IMG/VR virus record: IMGVR_UViG_3300027793_003021 | Coordinates: 1-35,880 of that record | Strand: one strand, 5' to 3' | DNA length: 35,880 nucleotides | Source: a virus | Shown here: in pieces, positions 3,371-26,166 of the stretch | Position numbering within the stretch: position 1 is the stretch's first letter | Layout: each line of letters begins with the position of its first letter | The notes under the pieces: generated by a model | The model's database searches: none | What the model was told of the DNA's origin: nothing | Seen by the model: only the letters and a program-made list of their open reading frames with translations | Translations under genes and position numbers: made by a program

Positions 3371-3393
3371 AATAAATTGTTATTATTTTAACT

Positions 3394-3401
3394 TATAAAT
3401 A
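3394..3401 (-). promoter_or_regulatory. TATTTATA box upstream of scaffold gene
   Basis: TATTTATA in gene orientation, 23 nt before the scaffold ATG. One of 14 such boxes in the window. A -10-like promoter role is inferred from position only. Confidence 0.45.
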
Positions 3402-3421
3402 GTGTCTAAATCGAAAAAAAT

Positions 3422-3736
3422 TTAGGCTGTAGCTAATATTATTGAAGTTTTTCCGAATGTAACCAACGTAGCTGTTGGGTAGTTTGTCGTGATCCAAGAC
3501 AAAACGTTAGATGAAGTAGTATCAAAAATTAGAAATCTCTCTGTAGTTCCTTCGTCATTTAGGTTAATGTTGAAACCACCACCTGTGTTATCATTAACAA
3601 CAACAGAGGCCGCATTGTAAACAGCAACATTATATTCAGTAAGTCCTAATGAATTGGCAAGTGTAATCCCATCTTGGATGGTTCCGCCCTGTATCAATCT
3701 TCCATTACCTGATGGAGTACTAAGTAGGATATTCAT
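3422..3736 (-). CDS. Small virion-module protein of unknown function
   Basis: A 104-residue protein starting MNILLSTPSGNG. It is rich in Asn, Thr, Gly and beta-branched residues and has almost no charge, which fits a compact beta-rich structural or decoration protein rather than a regulator. There is no signal peptide and no membrane segment. It lies between the DUF4494-like gene and the scaffold gene, within the block expected to hold head genes. I do not recognise the family. A TATTTATA box 12 nt upstream of the ATG and a hairpin terminator just before it suggest that it starts its own transcript. Confidence 0.65.
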   Translation of the reverse strand: MNILLSTPSGNGRLIQGGTIQDGITLANSLGLTEYNVAVYNAASVVVNDNTGGGFNINLNDEGTTERFLIFDTTSSNVLSWITTNYPTATLVTFGKTSIILATA

Positions 3737-3748
3737 AATTTTTTATTT

Positions 3749-3756
3749 TATAAATA
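3749..3756 (-). promoter_or_regulatory. TATTTATA box upstream of 104-residue gene
   Basis: TATTTATA in gene orientation, 12 nt before the ATG at 3736, directly downstream of the terminator-like hairpin at 3766-3790. Confidence 0.45.
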
Positions 3757-3765
3757 TCCTCAAAA

Positions 3766-3790
3766 TAAAAAAAGTGGTATAAAACCACTT
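3766..3790 (-). terminator. Hairpin terminator after DUF4494-like gene
   Basis: On the minus strand AAAGTGGT pairs with ACCACTTT across a short loop, followed by a run of T. It abuts the stop codon of the 69-residue gene, so it likely ends the protease/DUF4494 transcript. Confidence 0.7.
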
Positions 3791-4009: not shown

Positions 4010-4723
4010 TTATCTTCCCAAATAATCGGTAAGTTTTTTCATTAAATCAATAGACTTGTTTCCAGCCGAACTTAACCCAACGATTTTTTCTTCTTCCAAG
4101 TTTTCCTCATATTTCATTCTGTCCTCAGCATTTGGGAAAAGGTATGCACCTGGTGTTGAAGGTGAAGAAACCAAATCGAAACAAATCAACTCGAAATCAT
4201 CTTGTACTTCATTTCTCTCACCGATTTTCTTGAGGGATCCTACTCCTCTTGAAGATACTCCCATCGTTACTCCTTGTCTCATTAGGTTCGCCGCAATATC
4301 ACCCTTTGTTGAGACAATACCGCTTTCATGAAATCCTGGCGATGTCAATAATTTTAATTTACCCATCAAAACATTTCCTTCCCACCAAATATCTGTGATC
4401 AAATGAGATACTCTATCAAGGTCAATGAGAGAGGATTCGGGGTGGTTTAATTCAGATGTAGAAAGACCTTTTTGGATTGTCTTTTTATATTTTTCCGCTT
4501 CTCTTTTAAGAATGTTTTCAGGATAAAATCTTCCGTTTCTATTAGGGGTGTTGAATTTTTGTAAAACTGCAAAAAATTCAAATGGTTTCTTATAGTCTCT
4601 TTCTTGAGCTTCTTTCAAAATTGATTCATTCAATTTATCAAGTGGAGAAAGATATCCCGCATCTTCTTCGATAAGGATACCTTTACCTATTTCGTGTGGA
4701 CCAAGTATTTTATATTGTTTCAT
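4010..4723 (-). CDS. Prohead maturation protease, T4 gp21-like
   Basis: A serine protease of the herpesvirus-assemblin/T4 gp21 fold that cuts scaffold, capsid and internal head proteins before DNA packaging. From the ATG at 4723 the protein has 237 residues; the frame also extends one codon up to a TTG at 4726, but the ATG is the better start. Family features: FFAVLQKFNTPNRNGRFYP near the N-terminus, the catalytic His in SELNHPE (about His94), the Ser in MGVSSRGVG (about Ser157/158) and a following FDLVSSPSTPGA segment. The length fits T4 gp21 (212 residues). It lies between a possible core gene and the scaffold gene, as in T4. A TATTTATA box is 12 nt upstream. Confidence 0.92.
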   Translation of the reverse strand: MKQYKILGPHEIGKGILIEEDAGYLSPLDKLNESILKEAQERDYKKPFEFFAVLQKFNTPNRNGRFYPENILKREAEKYKKTIQKGLSTSELNHPESSLIDLDRVSHLITDIWWEGNVLMGKLKLLTSPGFHESGIVSTKGDIAANLMRQGVTMGVSSRGVGSLKKIGERNEVQDDFELICFDLVSSPSTPGAYLFPNAEDRMKYEENLEEEKIVGLSSAGNKSIDLMKKLTDYLGR

Positions 4724-4734
4724 CAAAACTTTTT

Positions 4735-17171: not shown

Positions 17172-17567
17172 TTATAGAAGTGAGATCTTCTTCTTTTCTT
17201 GTTTCTTAAATCCAGGGATGAAAACCGTAAGGAGTCCGTCCTCGATCGTTGCTTCAATTAGTTCTGCATTGTAATCAGTTCCTAATTTGAATTGTTTGTG
17301 AATCGATTTAGAAATTTCCTCACCGTTCATTTTGTATTTTCTCTTACCGTCAATGGTCATTACACCATCTTCAATTTCAACCTTCAAATTTTCTTTGTTG
17401 AAACCAGGTGCTTCAAATAAAAGGTATGCACCATCTTTAGTTTGGTTTACTTCGTAGTTGTTTTCATCTTCTTTGTTTTTTGTTACAACCGAAGTCTTGT
17501 AATAAGTGTTAGGACTGTTGAAAAACTTTTCAAAGATGTCATTGAAATCGTTTGTACCGTAGATCAT
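17172..17567 (-). CDS. Small heat-shock protein, Hsp20/alpha-crystallin family
   Basis: A 131-residue ATP-independent holdase that keeps unfolding proteins soluble. The alpha-crystallin domain spans about 38-125: GAYLLFEAPGFNKENLKVEIEDG early and the hallmark EATIEDGLLTVFIPGF near the end, followed by a KKISLL tail resembling the I-x-L oligomerisation motif. T4-like phages of other hosts also carry Hsp20 genes. It is divergent from the ClpC gene across 202 nt, so the two may share regulation. This fits a protein-quality-control group with ClpC and the tmRNA. Confidence 0.92.
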   Translation of the reverse strand: MIYGTNDFNDIFEKFFNSPNTYYKTSVVTKNKEDENNYEVNQTKDGAYLLFEAPGFNKENLKVEIEDGVMTIDGKRKYKMNGEEISKSIHKQFKLGTDYNAELIEATIEDGLLTVFIPGFKKQEKKKISLL

Positions 17568-17769: not shown

Positions 17770-19779
17770 ATGAATGATCTACTTGATGACGATGACAAAA
17801 TGATGAGTAAGAAGAAACAATCTTCTGACAGCCCAACACCAGTGTTGGATAATTTCAGTAGGGATCTTATCAAATTAGCCGAACAAGGTAAATTGGATCC
17901 CGTTATCGGCCGAGATAAAGAAATCATGAGGATTGCTCAAATTCTTTCGAGAAGAAAAAAGAACAATCCAATTATCATCGGAGAACCTGGTTGTGGTAAG
18001 ACCGCAATCGTTGAGGGTTTGGCTATGAAGATTTATAACGGTGAGTGTCCAAAAAATTTGATGGATAAAAGGATTGTGAATCTCGATATCAACTCAATTG
18101 TTGCCGGTACAAAATACCGTGGTCAGTTCGAAGAAAGGTTGAAAGTGATCATCGAAGAATTACAGGCTAACCCAAATGTGGTTGTGTTCATCGATGAAAT
18201 TCACACAATGGTTGGAGCAGGAAATGCGTCAGGTTCATTGGATGCATCAAACATCTTCAAACCAGCATTATCTCGTGGAGAGATTCAATGTATTGGTGCA
18301 ACTACACTTGATGAATACCGTACCAACTTTGAAAAAGATGGAGCACTCGAGAGACGTTTCCAAAAAATTATGGTTGAAGGTGCAACCAAGGAAGAAACAC
18401 TCCTTATTCTCAAAAATTCCAAAGACAAGTATGAAGCTTACCATAAGGTAACTTATTCTGATTCTGTTTTGGAGGCTTGTGTGAAATTGGCCGATCGTTA
18501 TATTACTGATCGTGAGTTTCCCGATAAAGCTTTCGATATCCTTGACGAGGTTGGTGCTCGTACACAACTCGAAACTAAAATTCCCGCAGCTATCGAAGAA
18601 TTGAAACAAAAGGCTTCTGAGATCAAACAACTCAAAATGGATGTTGTTAAGAAACAGAACTACGAGCAAGCCGCAGAATTACGTGATAAAGAAAGGAAGA
18701 TCATTGTAAAACTCGAAGACGCAAAGAAAAAGTTCGAAGAAGAAATGTCTCAATCAAAGAAGGAAATCTCTTTGGACTTGGTTTATGAAGTTGTTTCTAC
18801 AATGACCAAAATTCCGGTATCCAAGATGTCTATCGATGACACCAAGGCTCTTGTTAATTTGGATTCAGTCCTCAAGGATAGAGTTATCGGTCAAGATGCT
18901 GCGGTTCTCAAGATTGTAAAATCTATTCGTAGAAATCGTTTGGGTATCAAAGATCCAAATCGTCCAATCGGTTCATTCATTTTCTTAGGATCAACAGGTG
19001 TAGGTAAAACTCACTTAGCAAAACAACTCGCAAAAGAAATTTTCGGTACTGAGGATTCTTTGATCAGAGTGGACATGAGTGAATATCAAGAAAAACATAC
19101 TATCTCCAAATTAGTAGGTGCTCCTCCAGGCTATGTTGGTTACGATGAAGGTGGTCAACTTACAGAGCAAGTTAAAAACAAACCTTATTCTGTAATCCTA
19201 TTCGATGAGGTAGAGAAAGCTCACAAAGATATATTCTCTGTCTTACTACAAATATTGGATGACGGTCATGTTACCGATAGTTTGGGTAGAAAAATCAACT
19301 TCAGAAATACGTTGATTATCATGACTTCTAACTTGGGTGTAAAAAAACTACAAGACTTCGGTACGGGTATCGGATTCGGTTCGTCCAAGTATGGTTCTGA
19401 TGAACAGAAAAAAGAAATCTTGATGAAAGAAATGAAAAATTTCTTCTCTCCCGAATTCTTGAACCGTGTTGATGACATCATTACATTCAATGCACTCAAA
19501 GAAGATGACATCAAGAAAATCAGTGAAATTGAAATCAAGAAGTTGATCTCACGTTTGAATGAAATGAACTATAAGATCTCTTATGACCAAACACTCGTAG
19601 ATTATATTTCTAATGTTGGGTATGATGAACTTTACGGAGCAAGACCACTCAAGAGAGCAATTCAGGACAAAGTGGAAGATCTTGTGTCAGAAGAAGTTTT
19701 GAAGGGAAATGTGAAAGAAGGGACATCTTACAAAGTGATTGTAGATGGTGAAGAAATAAAACTGAAGAAGGGTAAATAA
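17770..19779 (+). CDS. ClpC/ClpA-type AAA+ unfoldase lacking the N-domain
   Basis: A 669-residue Hsp100 protein with two AAA+ rings that unfolds proteins and feeds them to a protease. First ring: GEPGCGKT (71-78), VVVFIDE (137-143), and GATTLDEYR as sensor. Middle: a UVR-like helix pair at about 275-325 (QNYEQAAELRDKER), typical of ClpC. Second ring: GSTGVGKT (407-414), VILFDE (475-480). A ClpP-docking IGF loop is present (GTGIGFGSS, 531-539), so it may use host ClpP. The usual Clp_N double repeat of about 140 residues is missing; only about 25 residues precede the first ring. It is convergent with the M20 peptidase and ends at a bidirectional terminator. Confidence 0.92.
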   Translation: MNDLLDDDDKMMSKKKQSSDSPTPVLDNFSRDLIKLAEQGKLDPVIGRDKEIMRIAQILSRRKKNNPIIIGEPGCGKTAIVEGLAMKIYNGECPKNLMDKRIVNLDINSIVAGTKYRGQFEERLKVIIEELQANPNVVVFIDEIHTMVGAGNASGSLDASNIFKPALSRGEIQCIGATTLDEYRTNFEKDGALERRFQKIMVEGATKEETLLILKNSKDKYEAYHKVTYSDSVLEACVKLADRYITDREFPDKAFDILDEVGARTQLETKIPAAIEELKQKASEIKQLKMDVVKKQNYEQAAELRDKERKIIVKLEDAKKKFEEEMSQSKKEISLDLVYEVVSTMTKIPVSKMSIDDTKALVNLDSVLKDRVIGQDAAVLKIVKSIRRNRLGIKDPNRPIGSFIFLGSTGVGKTHLAKQLAKEIFGTEDSLIRVDMSEYQEKHTISKLVGAPPGYVGYDEGGQLTEQVKNKPYSVILFDEVEKAHKDIFSVLLQILDDGHVTDSLGRKINFRNTLIIMTSNLGVKKLQDFGTGIGFGSSKYGSDEQKKEILMKEMKNFFSPEFLNRVDDIITFNALKEDDIKKISEIEIKKLISRLNEMNYKISYDQTLVDYISNVGYDELYGARPLKRAIQDKVEDLVSEEVLKGNVKEGTSYKVIVDGEEIKLKKGK

Positions 19780-20683: not shown

Positions 20684-21724
20684 TTACACATCACCAAACG
20701 GACCAGCAAATAATTCAGGTTGGTATAATAATTTATAAAAATTTTCTTCTGAGACTTTTCTGGATATTGATTTTAGGTCTTTACGTAGGATTACCTCAAC
20801 TTTCATTTCATCTTTATCGAAATCTTTAATCATGAAAGTGACACCCTTCAATTTGGGTAAATCATACATGACCATTGGTTTGAATTTTTTTGTGATTCTG
20901 TTATAAAACTCTATAAATTTTGGAAGATTTTCATCTTCTTCAATGTTGTCTTTAATCTTATCAAGTTGCCAAGCAACATCTCGATTGAAGGATTCTTTGT
21001 CGAAGTCACTGTTATATCCCCACTCATAACTTTGTTCGGACCAATTCCAACCTTGATCTTCTCCTTTGTATAACTCTTTAAATAGATCCTTGAAACTCAA
21101 CCACACTAATCCCGTTTTCAAGTATAACATTATCAATTCACCTACATTGATACTCACTGTGTCCCACTTTCTTGCAACTGTGAATTCATTTTTTTTGAGT
21201 TCTTCAGTAAGTTCTTCGTCGATAATTTCCATCGCCTTTTGAGTCGCCGCATGTTCAAACTCAGAATGATAATCATCTAAAATCCTATTAGTCTGTTTTG
21301 GATAAACTTTCAAAAGAATCTCCGCTGCCCTTTTGTTTGTGTTTTCTTCCGGTAGATCCGAGTAATCATAATTTGGATCCAAAACTTTCAAAATAAAATT
21401 CATTGTTTCCAAATTTTCTTCGTTCAATTCATAAAAAACAATATATCCTTGTTCGAAGTCTTCGAATACACGAGATTCATCTGTGAATCCCCAATTTGAA
21501 TGAGGTGAGTAAACATGATTCACAAAGAAAACGTCGTCCTGAGAAACACCTAAAGCTTCGAGTAGTTCTTCGTCGTTTTTGAACTCGAATTGAATTTTTG
21601 TTAACCCCTTTACCGGATTTTCAACAACCCTATGTATCGATGGTTCGGTCCTTTCAATATCATACCTATCCGCTTGTCCCCTTACGTATTTTCTTAATAT
21701 TTGAAATAATTCACTCGATGCCAA
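20684..21724 (-). CDS. Unknown 346-residue protein
   Basis: It starts with TTG at 21724 (residues MASSELFQILRKYVRGQ); no in-frame ATG lies nearby, which is unusual here. The N-terminal helix is followed by a mixed acidic domain with VFFVNHVYSPHSNWGF, a helical middle (ATQKAMEIIDEELTEELKK), a Trp-rich stretch GWNWSEQSYEWGYNSDF and a C-terminal alpha/beta part ending ELFAGPFGDV. No catalytic motif is recognised. It is transcribed away from the tmRNA. A TATTTATA box lies 14 nt upstream, linking it to the phage's own gene set. I do not recognise the family. Confidence 0.6.
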   Translation of the reverse strand: MASSELFQILRKYVRGQADRYDIERTEPSIHRVVENPVKGLTKIQFEFKNDEELLEALGVSQDDVFFVNHVYSPHSNWGFTDESRVFEDFEQGYIVFYELNEENLETMNFILKVLDPNYDYSDLPEENTNKRAAEILLKVYPKQTNRILDDYHSEFEHAATQKAMEIIDEELTEELKKNEFTVARKWDTVSINVGELIMLYLKTGLVWLSFKDLFKELYKGEDQGWNWSEQSYEWGYNSDFDKESFNRDVAWQLDKIKDNIEEDENLPKFIEFYNRITKKFKPMVMYDLPKLKGVTFMIKDFDKDEMKVEVILRKDLKSISRKVSEENFYKLLYQPELFAGPFGDV

Positions 21725-21738
21725 AACAATGATTTTAA

Positions 21739-21746
21739 TATAAATA
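21739..21746 (-). promoter_or_regulatory. TATTTATA box upstream of 346-residue gene
   Basis: TATTTATA in gene orientation, 14 nt before the TTG start at 21724, back to back with the tmRNA promoter. Confidence 0.45.
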
Positions 21747-21755
21747 TAAAATTCG

Positions 21756-21787
21756 TTTGGATTAGAAACTATTTATTCTTACCTTTG
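21756..21787 (+). promoter_or_regulatory. Bacteroidota-type promoter of the tmRNA gene
   Basis: TTTG at 21756-21759, 20 nt, then TACCTTTG at 21780-21787. This matches the Bacteroidota housekeeping consensus (TTTG, 17-23 nt, TAnnTTTG). The mature tmRNA 5' end at 21808 lies 20 nt beyond, leaving room for a short leader removed by RNase P. Confidence 0.8.
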
Positions 21788-21807
21788 AAAAAGTTATTTG
21801 AAATCAT

Positions 21808-22202
21808 GGGGATGTCACGGCATTGATTGGCATGTGATATTATAGATGGCACGTAGGAGCTGAATTAACTCCTTAAAAACTGATTTGAAACACAAACGGC
21901 GAAACTTTCGCAAAACTTTCTGCTATCGGTCTTATCCGTGAAGAAAGCGTTGTTGCTGCGTAATCGTAGAGAACAACATATCGGGTCGATTAGGACGTTA
22001 ACCTAGGAACAGAAGTCCAATATACGGGTGACAGGTCAGAGCTCGTTTAAAATAATTCTGAGACCAGGTTGTTTGTAGGTTGGTTTCCCACATATATCTA
22101 ACCTAATATTTCGTAACGTTGAGAAACAACGTTGTACTAAACGTGTAGTCATTTATAGTGTTCGTGAACAAGACACGGGTTCGACTCCCGTCATCTCCAC
22201 CA
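21808..22202 (+). ncRNA. ssrA: Transfer-messenger RNA (tmRNA), phage-encoded
   Basis: The 5' GGGGATG pairs with CATCTCC at the 3' end, followed by discriminator A and encoded CCA (22199-22202). The T arm is ACGGG-TTCGACT-CCCGT. The message part has the Bacteroidota resume context AAACGGCGAAA; from GGC at 21898 it reads GETFAKLSAI, GLI, REESVVAA and stops at TAA 21961-21963. With the tRNA-borne Ala the tag is 22 residues, about twice the usual bacterial length, and ends in VVAA, a protease-recognition type C-terminus. tmRNA rescues stalled ribosomes and marks the product for Clp proteases. It has its own promoter and sits near a phage ClpC and M20 peptidase. The tag-frame call follows from context and the exact Ala-Ala-stop ending. 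Confidence 0.93.
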
Positions 22203-22399
22203 GACAGGTGAAGACTGAGGTGGAACCCCTCGGTATATGAATCCCAAAGACGCCGTCTTGATTCGCGGTATCAGAGCGGTGAGGGTAGTGTTTACTATAA
22301 GTCAGGAGTAATTAACCAACGACGAAAATGTAACCACCAATGTAGGAATATGTTGGTCATGATGTGTAAAAGGACACGAAAAGCCTGTTTTTTTTAACC
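22203..22399 (+). other. Non-coding, hairpin-rich spacer between tmRNA and tRNA-Glu
   Basis: No ORF or tRNA fits these 197 nt. They contain several short hairpins: GAGG-TGGAACC-CCTC (22215-22229), AAGAC-GCC-GTCTT (22244-22256 region), TAGT-GTTT-ACTA (22288-22299 region), and GTGT-AAAAGG-ACAC (about 22365-22378), which precedes a T8 run (22388-22395). The last pair could be a weak terminator. A GAGGTrGAAC ... ATCCCAA motif recurs in the spacer after tRNA-Thr at 31404-31614. It may be a structured RNA; the identity is unknown. Confidence 0.4.
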
Positions 22400-22473
22400 G
22401 CTCCGTTAGACCAGTGGCTTAAGTCGTCTCCCTTTCACGGAGAAAATCAGGGGTTCGAATCCCCTACGGAGTA
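22400..22473 (+). tRNA. tRNA-Glu (anticodon TTC)
   Basis: Acceptor GCTCCGT/ACGGAGT with a G-T first pair. Anticodon stem TCTCC-CTTTCAC-GGAGA gives TTC. T arm AGGGG-TTCGAAT-CCCCT. Discriminator A; CCA is not encoded. It reads GAA, the favoured Glu codon in this AT-rich DNA. Confidence 0.93.
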
Positions 22474-22489
22474 CAAACGATCCTGAACT

Positions 22490-22672
22490 ATGAAAGAAAT
22501 ATTAAAATTAGCATCCGTATGCATCTACGTAGATAAGGACTACGTGTATCCATGTGACGAAAAAGGGAATCCCGATTTCGACAACAAAAAAAGTTATAAT
22601 GATCTGAGTCCTGAGTGGTTTCAGAATCTCTCGAACGAAGACAAAAATCTTATTAATTCTTTAAAAAATTAA
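22490..22672 (+). CDS. Small unknown protein after tRNA-Glu
   Basis: A 60-residue protein starting MKEILKLASVCIYVDKDYVYPCDEKG and ending with SPEWFQNLSNEDKNLINSLKN. Two Cys and an acidic middle are present; there is no membrane helix. The start follows tRNA-Glu by 16 nt, so the two may be cotranscribed. No family is recognised. The amino-acid make-up is normal, which supports a real gene over chance. Confidence 0.55.
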   Translation: MKEILKLASVCIYVDKDYVYPCDEKGNPDFDNKKSYNDLSPEWFQNLSNEDKNLINSLKN

Positions 22673-22890: not shown

Positions 22891-25800
22891 ATGAAAAAAG
22901 CAATCTTGATGTCCCTTTTATCCTTTATGGTGGCATTGACATCTTTCGGGCAGATTACAACTTCTACCCTGTCAGGTGTTGTGAAAAATGAAAAAGGAGA
23001 AACTTTAGCAGGTGCCACTGTACACGCAGTACACCAACCTTCAGGTTCTGAGTATCGAACAAGCTCAACAAAATCTGGTTTGTATACCATTCCAGCAGTT
23101 CGTGTAGGTGGACCTTACATTATCCACGTTAGTTACGTTGGTTACAAAATGGCTGAGATCACAGACATTCAGACATTGTTGGGCTCGACAAGTAATGTGG
23201 ACGTAGTTCTACTTTCCGACTCTAAACAACTCAGTGAGGTTACAGTCGTGGGAACAAAGAGTAACGTTTTTTCGAAAGACAAAACCGGAGCTGCTCAACA
23301 ATTCGGACGTAGAGAACTTACTTCTATTCCGATCGCGGGAGCAAGAACTATCGATGGTATCACAAAGTACAACCCATTCGGTAACGGAAACTCTTTTGGA
23401 GCTCAAGACTCACGTTTAAACAACTTCACTATTGACGGATCACAGTTCAACAACAACTTTGGTTTGGGTTCTTCAGCTCAAGCGGGTGGTAGAACTGGTG
23501 CTTCAGCAATATCATTGGATGCAATTGACCAACTTCAGGTTAACGTGGCACCTTTCGATATTCGTCAAAGTGGTTTCGTTGGTGCAGGTATCAATGCTGT
23601 TACTCGTTCAGGTACGAATGAGGTTGAAGGAAGTGTGTATCAAACACAGAGAAACAACTCATCTACTTATGTTGGTAACAATGCAAGGGGTACGACAGTA
23701 ACTGCGGCTAAATTTGATGAAAAGGTACAAGGTTTCAGATTAGGTGCTCCAATTATCAAAAACAAATTATTCATTTTTGGTAACTATGAGAGTATCGTAA
23801 GAACTGAACCAGGTACGACTTGGATTTCAGAAGGATCTCCTTTAACAGGTACACAAATCAGTAGAGTTAAATTTGCTGACATGCAAAGACTATCAAACTT
23901 TATGAAAGATAGTTTGGGTTATGTCACAGGTCCTTGGGAAGGGTATTCTAACACTAACGATTCAAGAAAATTCTTGATTCGTGTGGATTGGAACATCAAC
24001 AAGAATAACAAGTTAACCGCTCGTTATGTGAATCACAATTCTTCTGCTGAGATTAACATTTCAAACTCTCAGTCAGCGGGAGCAGGAAACAGAACTACTC
24101 AGTTCAACGCAATGAGTTTCAAAAATAGTGGTTACATTATTCAGGACAATACTCGTTCTGCGGTTTTGGAACTTAACTCTAAAATCTCTAACACACTTCA
24201 CAATAACTTAATCGTTTCTTACGATAAGCAAATTGAGGATAGAGCATATTTGAGTCAAATGTTCCCAACTATTGATATCAGAGAAGGTTCCGCAACTTAC
24301 ACTTCAGTAGGTTTCGACCCTTTCACACCTGGTAACAAATTGAACTATTGGACGTTCAACGTAACAAATAACTTGACAAAGTATTTGAACAAACATACTT
24401 TGGTTGGTGGTTTCAACTATCAAAGTTATCAATCAAATAACCTATTCTTCCCAGCTTCTAACGGAGTTTACATCTTCAACAGTCTGAACGACTTCTATAC
24501 CGCAGCAAGACAATCAATTGCTAACGGTGGTAGACCTTCAACATTCGCACCAGCAAGATTCCAATTACGTTATTCGGCACTACCTGGAGCGGTAGAACCA
24601 ATGCAGGTTTTGGAAGCTAATCGTTTGGATCTTTACGTTCAAGATGAATTCAACGCAACCAAAGAACTGAAGTTGACTTTTGGTATCAGAGCAAATGTTA
24701 TTGATTTAGGTAACACAGCTTTAGAAAATAAAGCGGTGTCTTCAATGATCTTCGCAAATGGTGAAGGATTCAATACAAGTGTTCTTCCAAAAACACAGTT
24801 CTTAATAGAACCTCGTTTCGGATTCAACTACGACCTCAAAGGTCAGAAAAAAACACAAATCCGTGGTGGTACAGGTGTATTCACAGGTAGACCACCATAC
24901 GTGTTCCTTTCTAACCAAGTTGGTAACAACGGTGTGTTAACAGGATTTATCGATGTATCAGGAGCGGCAGCGGCACAATATGGTTTCACTGCAAATCCTA
25001 ATCAATACTTCATCCCATCAACACCAACTTTACCTTCTACGTTTGATTTAGCATTCACTAATCAGAATTATAAATTTCCACAAGTTTGGAAAAACAACAT
25101 CGCTATTGATCAGAAACTACCTTGGCTTGGTTTAATTTTGAGTGCTGAATTACTCTACAACAAAACCATCAATGCGGTTCATTATTACAACGCTAACTTA
25201 GATAAACCAGTTGGTAAGTTAGGTGGTGTTGATACTAGAGACCTTTTCGCAGGAAATGATAATGGTGTAAGAGTAAATGATAACGTATCAATGGCTGCAG
25301 TTCTAACAAACAGAAATGGTACTTACAATCGTTCTGCAACTTTCAAATTAGAAAAACCTGTATCTAAAGGTCTTTGGGGTTACGTAGCTTACACAAACGC
25401 TATGGCAGAAGATTTCATGAGTGCGGGTTCAATCGCGAGTGGTAGCTGGCAGTCAGCAGTATCTGTAAACGGTAACAATAACTTAGGACTATCAATTTCT
25501 GACTTTGTTGTTAGAAATAGAATCGTAGGTTTGTTAGGTTACAGAATTGACTACGGTAAAAAATATGGTGGAGCAACAACAATCACTCTTGGTTATGTTG
25601 GTTCACAGAACAATCCATTCTCTTACATTGTAGCTGGTGATTTGAACGGTGACAGAGTAAATAACAATGATTTGGTATTTGTACCAAACAAAGGATCTGA
25701 CATTCGTTTTGCACCACTTACAGTAGGAACAAGAGTTTACACTGAAGCTGAACAACAAGCAGCATTTGAAGCTTTCATATCTCAAGATCCATATCTATCA

Positions 25801-26166
25801 ACAAGAAGAGGACAGTACGCTGAAAGAAACGCACTTGATCTTCCTTTCTTACATAGATTCGATCTTTCAATAGCTCAGGATGTATTTGTTAAAATCGGTG
25901 GAAAAAGAAATTCTTTCCAAATCAGAGCTGACATTCTAAACTTCGGAAACATGGTAAACAACAAATGGGGTGTATCTCAAAGAGCTACAAACCCTCAGTT
26001 GTTAAACTTCGTTAGCAGAGATGCTAGTAACATTCCAACTTATAGATTGGCAACTCAAAGAGATGCAAGCGGTACTTACTTGATCAAAGACACATATCAA
26101 TTCAATTCATCAGTATTTGATGTATGGTCTGCACAGTTAGGTATCAGATATACTTTTGGTAAGTAA
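22891..26166 (+). CDS. Oar-like TonB-dependent outer-membrane protein
   Basis: A 1091-residue, complete outer-membrane beta-barrel. Signal peptide at 1-21 (MKKAILMSLLSFMVALTSFGQ). Carboxypeptidase-regulatory-like domain at about 25-110 (LSGVVKNEKGETLAGATV, SYVGYK). Plug region at about 115-240 (LSEVTVVGTKSNVF, NNFTIDGSQFNNNFG, SGFVGAGINAVTRSGTN). The rest is a barrel of amphipathic strands ending QLGIRYTFGK. This is the Oar/SusC-related architecture typical of Bacteroidota. I see no frameshift or internal stop, and base composition is like its neighbours. Such genes are rare in phages. It may replace or mask a host receptor (superinfection exclusion) or change uptake. It is flanked by terminators on both sides, so it is an independent unit. 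Confidence 0.92.
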   Translation: MKKAILMSLLSFMVALTSFGQITTSTLSGVVKNEKGETLAGATVHAVHQPSGSEYRTSSTKSGLYTIPAVRVGGPYIIHVSYVGYKMAEITDIQTLLGSTSNVDVVLLSDSKQLSEVTVVGTKSNVFSKDKTGAAQQFGRRELTSIPIAGARTIDGITKYNPFGNGNSFGAQDSRLNNFTIDGSQFNNNFGLGSSAQAGGRTGASAISLDAIDQLQVNVAPFDIRQSGFVGAGINAVTRSGTNEVEGSVYQTQRNNSSTYVGNNARGTTVTAAKFDEKVQGFRLGAPIIKNKLFIFGNYESIVRTEPGTTWISEGSPLTGTQISRVKFADMQRLSNFMKDSLGYVTGPWEGYSNTNDSRKFLIRVDWNINKNNKLTARYVNHNSSAEINISNSQSAGAGNRTTQFNAMSFKNSGYIIQDNTRSAVLELNSKISNTLHNNLIVSYDKQIEDRAYLSQMFPTIDIREGSATYTSVGFDPFTPGNKLNYWTFNVTNNLTKYLNKHTLVGGFNYQSYQSNNLFFPASNGVYIFNSLNDFYTAARQSIANGGRPSTFAPARFQLRYSALPGAVEPMQVLEANRLDLYVQDEFNATKELKLTFGIRANVIDLGNTALENKAVSSMIFANGEGFNTSVLPKTQFLIEPRFGFNYDLKGQKKTQIRGGTGVFTGRPPYVFLSNQVGNNGVLTGFIDVSGAAAAQYGFTANPNQYFIPSTPTLPSTFDLAFTNQNYKFPQVWKNNIAIDQKLPWLGLILSAELLYNKTINAVHYYNANLDKPVGKLGGVDTRDLFAGNDNGVRVNDNVSMAAVLTNRNGTYNRSATFKLEKPVSKGLWGYVAYTNAMAEDFMSAGSIASGSWQSAVSVNGNNNLGLSISDFVVRNRIVGLLGYRIDYGKKYGGATTITLGYVGSQNNPFSYIVAGDLNGDRVNNNDLVFVPNKGSDIRFAPLTVGTRVYTEAEQQAAFEAFISQDPYLSTRRGQYAERNALDLPFLHRFDLSIAQDVFVKIGGKRNSFQIRADILNFGNMVNNKWGVSQRATNPQLLNFVSRDASNIPTYRLATQRDASGTYLIKDTYQFNSSVFDVWSAQLGIRYTFGK

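Follow-up and report, generated by a model that had tools for sequence, protein, structure and literature searches.

The window analysed here, a 35,880-base IMG/VR virus record with T4-type portal, terminase and prohead protease genes, carries a complete tmRNA gene that encodes a long tag. A family of related phages keeps this tag at 21 or 22 codons, together with a ClpC-like unfoldase and ClpP. We put at slightly under an even chance the whole chain in which the phage tmRNA would use host SmpB and mark stalled products for the phage ClpC-like/ClpP protease. The tmRNA itself is solid, and its link to the protease is what we infer.

Results

The window encodes a complete phage tmRNA

ARAGORN called a tmRNA at 21808-22202 on the plus strand, with the tag GETFAKLSAIGLIREESVVAA* at gene positions 91-156. 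The Rfam model RF00023 matched over its full length, 1-374 (90.9 bits, E 2.8e-34; cut-off 47). The two methods agree on the tRNA-like ends, the resume codon GGC and the stop that a preliminary description had read from the letters, and the covariance model places the consensus resume codon on the same GGC as ARAGORN (21898), not elsewhere. The tag has 22 residues as that description had claimed, 21 codons plus the charged alanine, in both the ARAGORN call and the Rfam alignment. The parts of the gene are as follows.

21808..22202, + strand: one-piece phage tmRNA (ssrA) gene, from ARAGORN, Rfam RF00023 and family conservation
21898..21963, + strand: tag reading frame, with resume codon GGC (21898-21900), 21 codons GETFAKLSAIGLIREESVVAA and stop TAA (21961-21963)
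21808..21814, + strand: 5' strand of the acceptor stem, GGGGATG, paired with 22192-22198, G3 (21810) facing U70 (22196)
22192..22202, + strand: 3' strand of the acceptor stem, discriminator A and encoded CCA

The bases preceding the resume codon were compared among the 52 distinct tmRNAs of the family described below. The base at -4 is A in 52/52 (21894 in the window), and the base at -5 is C (27) or T (25), never A. In E. coli tmRNA, A86, four bases 5' of the resume codon, is the frame setter, and the U85A change, which places an A at the preceding position, is harmful (PMC2481249). The constant A at -4 and the lack of A at -5 thus give independent support for the tag frame. The family frames close with TAA (44), TAG (7) or TGA (1).

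The G3-U70 pair is the alanine-identity pair of the acceptor stem. It is kept in all 35 scorable family members, even where the remaining stem pairs are swapped (GGGCTCG/CGAGTCC); the 17 members without the exact T-loop string used for scoring were left unscored. The window encodes its own CCA, as do 26 of the 35 scored members; in those without it, CCA would have to be added. Judged from these features, the tmRNA is genuine, that is, a working phage tmRNA with an alanine-type tRNA-like domain and a correctly placed resume codon. A decayed or mis-assembled fragment of a host ssrA gene could account for a score of 90.9 bits, below the 108.5-158.5 bits of host tmRNAs, but such an origin is highly improbable, as it is contradicted by the presence of the gene in 74 of the best 80 of 276 contigs, by the open tag frames, by a promoter and by the compensated acceptor stem.

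The tag is conserved in length and variable at its end

Related loci were fetched from IMG/VR through the neighbouring peptidase, and the best 80 of 276 viral loci were searched with a profile built from 19 of the tmRNAs. A tmRNA lies near the Clp ATPase gene in 74 of these best 80 of 276 loci, one tmRNA being cut. In the remaining 6 the contig stops less than 1.9 kb from the peptidase on the tmRNA side. L236 and L243 still extend for 1.8 kb, a distance at which the tmRNA is already present in some relatives, so that tmRNA loss is possible there. Of 120 loci from a pattern scan, the family set took in only near full-length profile matches (1e-20 or better) chosen by hand; L126 (3' part only) and L098 were left out, and two sequences with another tag family were set aside.

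Among the 52 distinct tmRNAs, the tag has 21 codons in 45 and 22 in 7, and the resume codon is GGC in 50 and GAC in 2. The 22-codon branch carries the tag GNVLNKMAL[LV]GLVKQDELV[AE]VA. Among the 21-codon tags there are 37 distinct DNA sequences, which encode 32 distinct peptides, and K6, G11, L12, E15 and V19 are invariant in them; the first half follows the consensus GxTFAKxxxLGL. The C-terminal ends differ over the family (VVAA, VVTA, VVGA, VVKA, TVVA, VVTI and others), with alanine as the last residue in 34 of the 37 sequences. The conserved small C-terminal end of an SsrA-type degron was not found in the family. We therefore dropped VVAA as a conserved degron, since the tag of the window's species ends in it but the family does not conserve it. 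Comparison with related phages thus bore out the long tag of the preliminary description and not its VVAA end. The proposal that the tag ends in a Clp-type degron is not supported by codons 13-21 either, where averaged counting detects no clear amino-acid constraint (see below) and where pairing is predicted in the helix that follows the tag.

ARAGORN misreads the resume codon in L214, L229, L268, L277 and others, giving AEEATVVA-type tags, and misses the gene in still others, so automatic tag tables will hide long tags.

A DNA pattern covering 29 of the 37 family tags had no match in a sampled set of 198 Bacteroidota genomes, nor did a narrower pattern covering 7 of the 37 (the window's own excluded) in the same 198. 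A tblastn search with one family tag, a 21-residue query of little power, found no match among 50,697 phage records. When IMG/VR was scanned with a tag profile, 81 stretches matched and 58 of these encode a relative; all 58 lie inside a tmRNA, 57 placed there automatically and L375 by its coordinates (3468 within 3374-3770). Outside its tmRNA, a 321-kb relative holds only weak look-alikes. The idea that the tag peptide also occurs in host genomes or phage proteins was dropped, as the pattern, tblastn and profile scans gave no such case.

Several further observations concern the tmRNAs of these and other phages. The middle of the tmRNA (22000-22130) occurs in at least two unlike versions in the family alignment, which do not track the 5' part; L206 and L267 have the window's middle without its 5' type. 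This distribution suggests cassette exchange. A second group of phages with long tags (L083, L105, L119 and L121) carries the tag ADEEYRDLLAEAEQIFNNADAYVPEEALLAA. A third (L098, L099, L106, L120, L138, L150, L171, L184 and L193) has tags of the form ELS(T/S)(M/F/W)TF ... YAVAA or YALAA.

Host tmRNAs and the origin of the long tag

We found 26 tmRNAs in 31 Bacteroidota genomes. All 26 tags have 9-10 codons and end in LAA or MAA, in line with the length of about 10 given in the preliminary description; ARAGORN gave 22 of the tags, three of which lacked the first Gly, and the other 4, where ARAGORN misplaced or missed the tag, came from a direct search presuming G...[LM]AA. The phage tag is about twice as long. 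The host tmRNAs (tags GENNYALAA and GNTQYAMAA) share with the phage tmRNA the one-piece form, the resume codon GGC and a start of the GE-T or GNT kind. They differ in that the phage tag has 21 rather than 9-10 codons, has no LAA or MAA end family-wide and contains an extra hairpin in the frame. What is fixed in the host tags seen is their end.

At the DNA level, a Chitinophagaceae tag reads GGC AAT ACT CAG TAT GCC ATG GCT GCT TAA, and the tag of phage L206 reads GGC AAT ACT TTT GCT AAG ATG GCT GCT TTA GGT. From this likeness, the phage tag looks like a host-type nine-codon tag extended by twelve. The claim that the tag starts like a host tag held in a modest form: the best phage/host pair of tag starts is alike in 6/9 residues (permutation p 0.004, for a pair picked after looking), and the window's own start matches host tags in at most 5/9. 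A host-type 9-residue tag was probably the starting point of the extension, which would have come with an added RNA hairpin in the frame. A one-step extension by change of the stop TAA to TTA is suggested by the DNA and was not retained, because codon 10 of the ancestor was reconstructed as ATC/CTC, not TTA.

The host phylum of these large phages is probably Bacteroidota, because the tmRNA promoter is of that type and the relatives of a receptor-like gene lie in Bacteroidota genomes. A gene of the window at 22891-26166 encodes a 1091-aa outer-membrane receptor-like protein with a carboxypeptidase-regulatory domain, a beta-barrel and a signal-peptide-like start. It looks bacterial and is present in 22 of the best 80 of 276 loci and in a 99.67% identical contig.

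A Bacteroidota-type promoter precedes the tmRNA

Bacteroidota promoters follow the consensus TTTG, 17-23 bases, TAnnTTTG. The upstream region of the tmRNA contains two elements.

21756..21787, + strand: Bacteroidota-type promoter, TTTG (21756-21759), 20 nt, TACCTTTG (21780-21787)
21793..21803, + strand: boxA-like leader element GTTATTTGAAA, mostly GTTCTTTRAAA in the family

The full pattern TTTG-N17..23-TAnnTTTG is present in 30 of 50 distinct upstream regions (mean 0.19 and maximum 2 in shuffles), and the downstream box alone in 45 of 50 (5.8 expected, maximum 13); the shuffles were single-base and the upstream regions are related sequences. On this evidence the tmRNA is likely expressed. The strict boxA-like form TTCTTTRA occurs in 35 of 50 leaders (shuffles mean 0.7, maximum 4), the window's own variant lying outside it, and in one of three host 16S leaders, the other two having near forms. 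The element thus resembles motifs of host rRNA leaders, as if antitermination of the rRNA type were used.

On the downstream side, about 190 bases between the tmRNA and a tRNA-Glu (22203-22399) contain no recognised gene, and an Rfam search of this stretch returned only the tRNA and one chance-level match. A tRNA-Glu lies within 400 bases of the tmRNA in only 4 loci among the best 80 of 276.

A ClpC-like ATPase and ClpP accompany the tmRNA

Three conserved genes lie beside the tmRNA.

17770..19779, + strand: Clp ATPase, a ClpC core without N-domain (phrog_4871, E 1.3e-241), with two Walker A/B sites, pore loops and a GIGF ClpP-docking loop
19811..20650, - strand: M20/M42-like peptidase between Clp and tmRNA (phrog_4191, E 1.3e-36; Pfam M20 and M42 both below cut-off)
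20684..21724, - strand: conserved protein adjoining the tmRNA (ORF346), in 79 of the best 80 of 276 loci

The order tmRNA, ORF346, peptidase, Clp is kept in all 71 loci showing all four among the best 80 of 276, where the tmRNA and Clp lie on the same strand, 2.0-5.6 kb apart. The peptidase is present in 80/80 by construction, and ORF346 has no Pfam or PHROG match. A gene for the small heat-shock protein Hsp20 (17172-17567) also lies near Clp in the window, and Hsp20 is found in 34 of the best 80 of 276 loci.

The phage Clp is a ClpC core with a ClpP-docking loop, which confirms the nearby phage ClpC of the preliminary description. Like ClpC (6em8), it has two AAA+ modules, pore loops and the docking loop. 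Unlike ClpC it lacks the N-domain, its residues 10-664 aligning with 146-802 of 6em8. The N-domain is the usual adaptor-binding part of Clp proteins. Among 59 Clp sequences (58 distinct plus the window), no change is seen in the GIGF loop, the two Walker A sites or the first pore loop, and the Walker B sites and the second pore loop vary slightly. Clp was found in 40/40 family records searched and a tmRNA above the Rfam cut-off in 37 of the 40.

The search for ClpP covered 23 of these 40 records, picked mostly by length, and found it in 19. The misses mean little, since the records may be fragments. A 97-kb contig of the window's own species (L202; 99.67% identical to the window over 12.8 kb) contains ClpP, and the available part of another contig of that species (70 kb) has none. 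The phage ClpP aligns to 1y7o and, inspected by eye in L417 and L418, shows the motifs GMAASMGS and MLHQ and an Asp-containing motif, so the pair has the Ser/His/Asp motifs of a ClpC/ClpP protease beside the ATPase features. Of the suggested pairing of phage Clp with host ClpP, the ClpC-type partner stands; host ClpP need not be involved, because the same phage species encodes ClpP. SmpB was detected in 0/40 family records, most or all of them fragments, and in 10 of 14 control genomes.

As a comparison, 37 other viral records with an ARAGORN tmRNA, many of them short, contained no full Clp ATPase and four weak partial matches; ClpP-like matches were seen in 11 of the 37 and may in some cases be head proteases. 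The notion that a long phage tag means an own Clp was dropped, as 11 long-tag records of other groups (17-180 kb) lack a full Clp ATPase. Another tmRNA-bearing phage record (G275, the record of L110) has two tandem ClpP-like genes at 21352-22499.

The tag frame is predicted to fold

Three structures were predicted within and just after the tag frame.

21899..21911, + strand: hairpin A, tag codons 1-5, predicted RNA (folds; pairing preserved in 96.2% of cells across 37 sequences; RNAalifold consensus)
21916..21947, + strand: hairpin B, tag codons 7-17, predicted RNA (folds and synonymous test; single-register pairing in 77.3% of cells)
21949..21977, + strand: H5-like helix in which tag codons 18-21 and the stop pair with the bases after them (single-sequence folds)

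Folded singly, most 21-codon tags form hairpin A over codons 1-5, hairpin B over about codons 6-17 and a helix with codons 18-21. Hairpin B is about as long as the 12-codon extension. We compared tag codons 1-17 with synonymous versions drawn from phage-gene codons, and the mean z was -2.44 over 42 sequences, 29 of them below -2. For 13 clusters at 90% identity, the mean z was -2.30 against -0.25 in 300 control windows from the phage's own genes (p 9e-8). The effect was weaker when codons were drawn from the family tags instead (mean z -1.77, 15/42 below -2). Overall, the named structure pairs in 83% of cells, compared with 34-55% when slid.

The RNAalifold consensus contains hairpin A only, and we think that hairpin B was missed through register shifts between branches. 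Covariation in hairpin B was not upheld: shuffles favoured it by score (0/500) but not by the number of pairs with two-sided changes (330/500), and the hairpin is absent from the RNAalifold consensus. The case for hairpin B comes mainly from the synonymous-codon test. A different fold is predicted for the 22-codon branch, and hairpins at codons 1-6 occur in two Chitinophagaceae tags. Folding extends to other long phage tags, and one stem shows matching changes in one group (GTAGA/TCTAC, GAAGA/TCTTC and GTTGA/TCAAC); this hairpin inside the tag belongs to the third group with ELS(T/S)(M/F/W)TF tags. To our knowledge, a tag frame that doubles as peptide and RNA hairpin would be unusual for a tmRNA.

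The tag codons show modest amino-acid constraint

Codon changes were counted by parsimony on a Clp tree and on a tree of whole tmRNAs without the tag, with p values that treat changes as independent. With averaged paths and random ties, omega of the whole tag was 0.66-0.71 (p 0.003-0.01; both trees). By the same averaged counting, codons 1-12 gave 0.56-0.58 (p 0.004) and codons 13-21 gave 0.78-0.88 (p 0.13-0.3), again on both trees. Counting in favour of synonymous change lowered the whole tag to 0.45-0.48 (p 2e-7 or less), and codons 13-21 to 0.60 (p 0.006) on the tmRNA tree. Counting against synonymous change raised the whole tag to 0.90 (p 0.25) and codons 1-12 to 0.92 (p 0.38); constraint then stayed clear in codons 1-6 alone (omega 0.43, p 0.009). 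By these estimates, the amino-acid constraint on the tag is modest, certain only for codons 1-6 and weakest towards the end. Codons 11-12, in the loop of hairpin B, always encode Gly-Leu, and Phe is avoided at codon 12 (Fisher p 8e-7, relatedness ignored). Tag peptide and tag RNA both appear constrained.

Cleavage of the tag by the prohead protease was also considered. L12 and E15 are constant in the 21-codon tags, the phage has an S77 prohead protease (4010-4726, near the head genes), and T4-type prohead proteases cut after Glu (PMC5694885). We rejected this candidate, because the L12/E15 motif is too short and the 22-codon branch has no motif there; it remains a lead.

Discussion

In the reading that we favour, host alanyl-tRNA synthetase would charge the phage tmRNA, and host SmpB and EF-Tu would carry it to stalled ribosomes, the use of these host factors being proposed since SmpB went undetected in the phage group. 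The ribosome would then append A-GETFAKLSAIGLIREESVVAA. Our main claim is that the lengthened tag, mainly its first half, would be an address for the phage's own protease, made up of the ClpC-like unfoldase encoded 2 kb away and the phage ClpP encoded elsewhere in the genome. If the hairpin was added inside the reading frame with the extension, the same tag codons would serve peptide and RNA fold. The docking loop of Clp and the phage's own ClpP make a phage-specific protease route more plausible. The main claim is weakened by the missing N-domain of the phage Clp, by long tags elsewhere without a full Clp, and by a constraint estimate that depends on the counting. Clp and ClpP are so general in the group, in every member or almost every one, that their presence or absence cannot link them to the tag. 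A private tag-and-destroy route, in which the phage ClpC-like/ClpP protease reads the internal core of the tag instead of its C-terminal end, host ClpXP largely ignores the tag and the codons also fold, seems to us doubtful but quite conceivable.

The phage gene could instead keep host ribosomes running as a spare copy of host ssrA, with host ClpXP or another host protease degrading the products through a small hydrophobic C-terminus and the length being tolerated drift. The alanine that ends 34 of the 37 distinct tag sequences fits this explanation, as do the 8-35 residues of published tags (PMC8012679) and the near-neutral codons 13-21 under averaged counting, joined by codons 7-12 under counting against synonymous change. 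Drift is harder to reconcile with a length of 21 codons in all 32 distinct main-branch peptides (22 in the side branch) and with five residues (K6, G11, L12, E15 and V19) constant in 37 sequences. Ends such as VVTI, VVKA and TVVA are unlike the host LAA and MAA, and the phage owns Clp and ClpP; we consider a spare copy rather doubtful. Selection may otherwise have acted on RNA architecture, a hairpin having been added to the mRNA-like part with the frame running through it, so that the peptide is largely a by-product and the main role is ribosome release. That release, not degradation, secures survival (PMC8012679) agrees with this, and so do the tag frame that out-folds its synonymous versions (mean z -2.3 against -0.25 for 13 clusters, p 9e-8), the match in length between hairpin B and the 12 extra codons, and the folding of other long phage tags with matching changes in one stem. 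A by-product peptide sits poorly with codons 1-6 being constrained under every counting, and codons 1-12 with averaged counting, and with the constant Gly-Leu in the hairpin-B loop, where codon 12 avoids Phe. Hairpin A alone enters the RNAalifold consensus, and the 22-codon branch folds differently, and on balance RNA architecture as the selected trait is unlikely.

Phage tmRNAs are known from mycobacteriophages and Bacillus phage G (PMC4131195), from the methylophage Melnitz (PMC9004378) and from huge phages (PMC7162821), and a survey found tmRNA in 402 of 18,146 phage genomes (PMC9004378). Suggested roles are to keep the hijacked machinery running or to tag host proteins for recycling (PMC9004378). 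Bacterial tags of 8-35 residues (PMC8012679) and Clp proteins of jumbo phages (PMC6102473) are also known. The described phage tmRNAs have in common with that of the window a complete ssrA on the phage genome; their descriptions, in the passages that deal with tmRNA, do not include tag length, tag conservation or a paired phage Clp protease (PMC4131195, PMC9004378, PMC7162821). The Melnitz tmRNA is two-piece (PMC9004378) and that of the window one-piece, and a phage SmpB is mentioned for huge phages (PMC7162821), whereas none was found in this family.

The phage group may be that of the moraphages, large aquatic phages with predicted Bacteroidota hosts (PMC12619734). Gene content agrees by description, which is the level of this comparison: T4-type head genes, a prohead protease, a Clp ATP-binding subunit and a putative peptidase are among the moraphage core genes, and the main text of that report makes no mention of tmRNA (PMC12619734). 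Our searches of the open-licence literature turned up no paper that describes a conserved long tag in phages together with phage Clp/ClpP. New here are the variable tag ends, the stable fold of the tag frame, and a ClpC-like unfoldase with ClpP in tmRNA phages without detected SmpB.

As the tag, its length and the phage ClpC-like/ClpP pair are conserved together in one large group, the reason why phages carry tmRNA at all becomes directly testable with purified parts. If the favoured reading is true, these phages would own a virus-encoded protein quality-control route with a degron read from inside, which would be useful for orthogonal protein degradation in bacteria.
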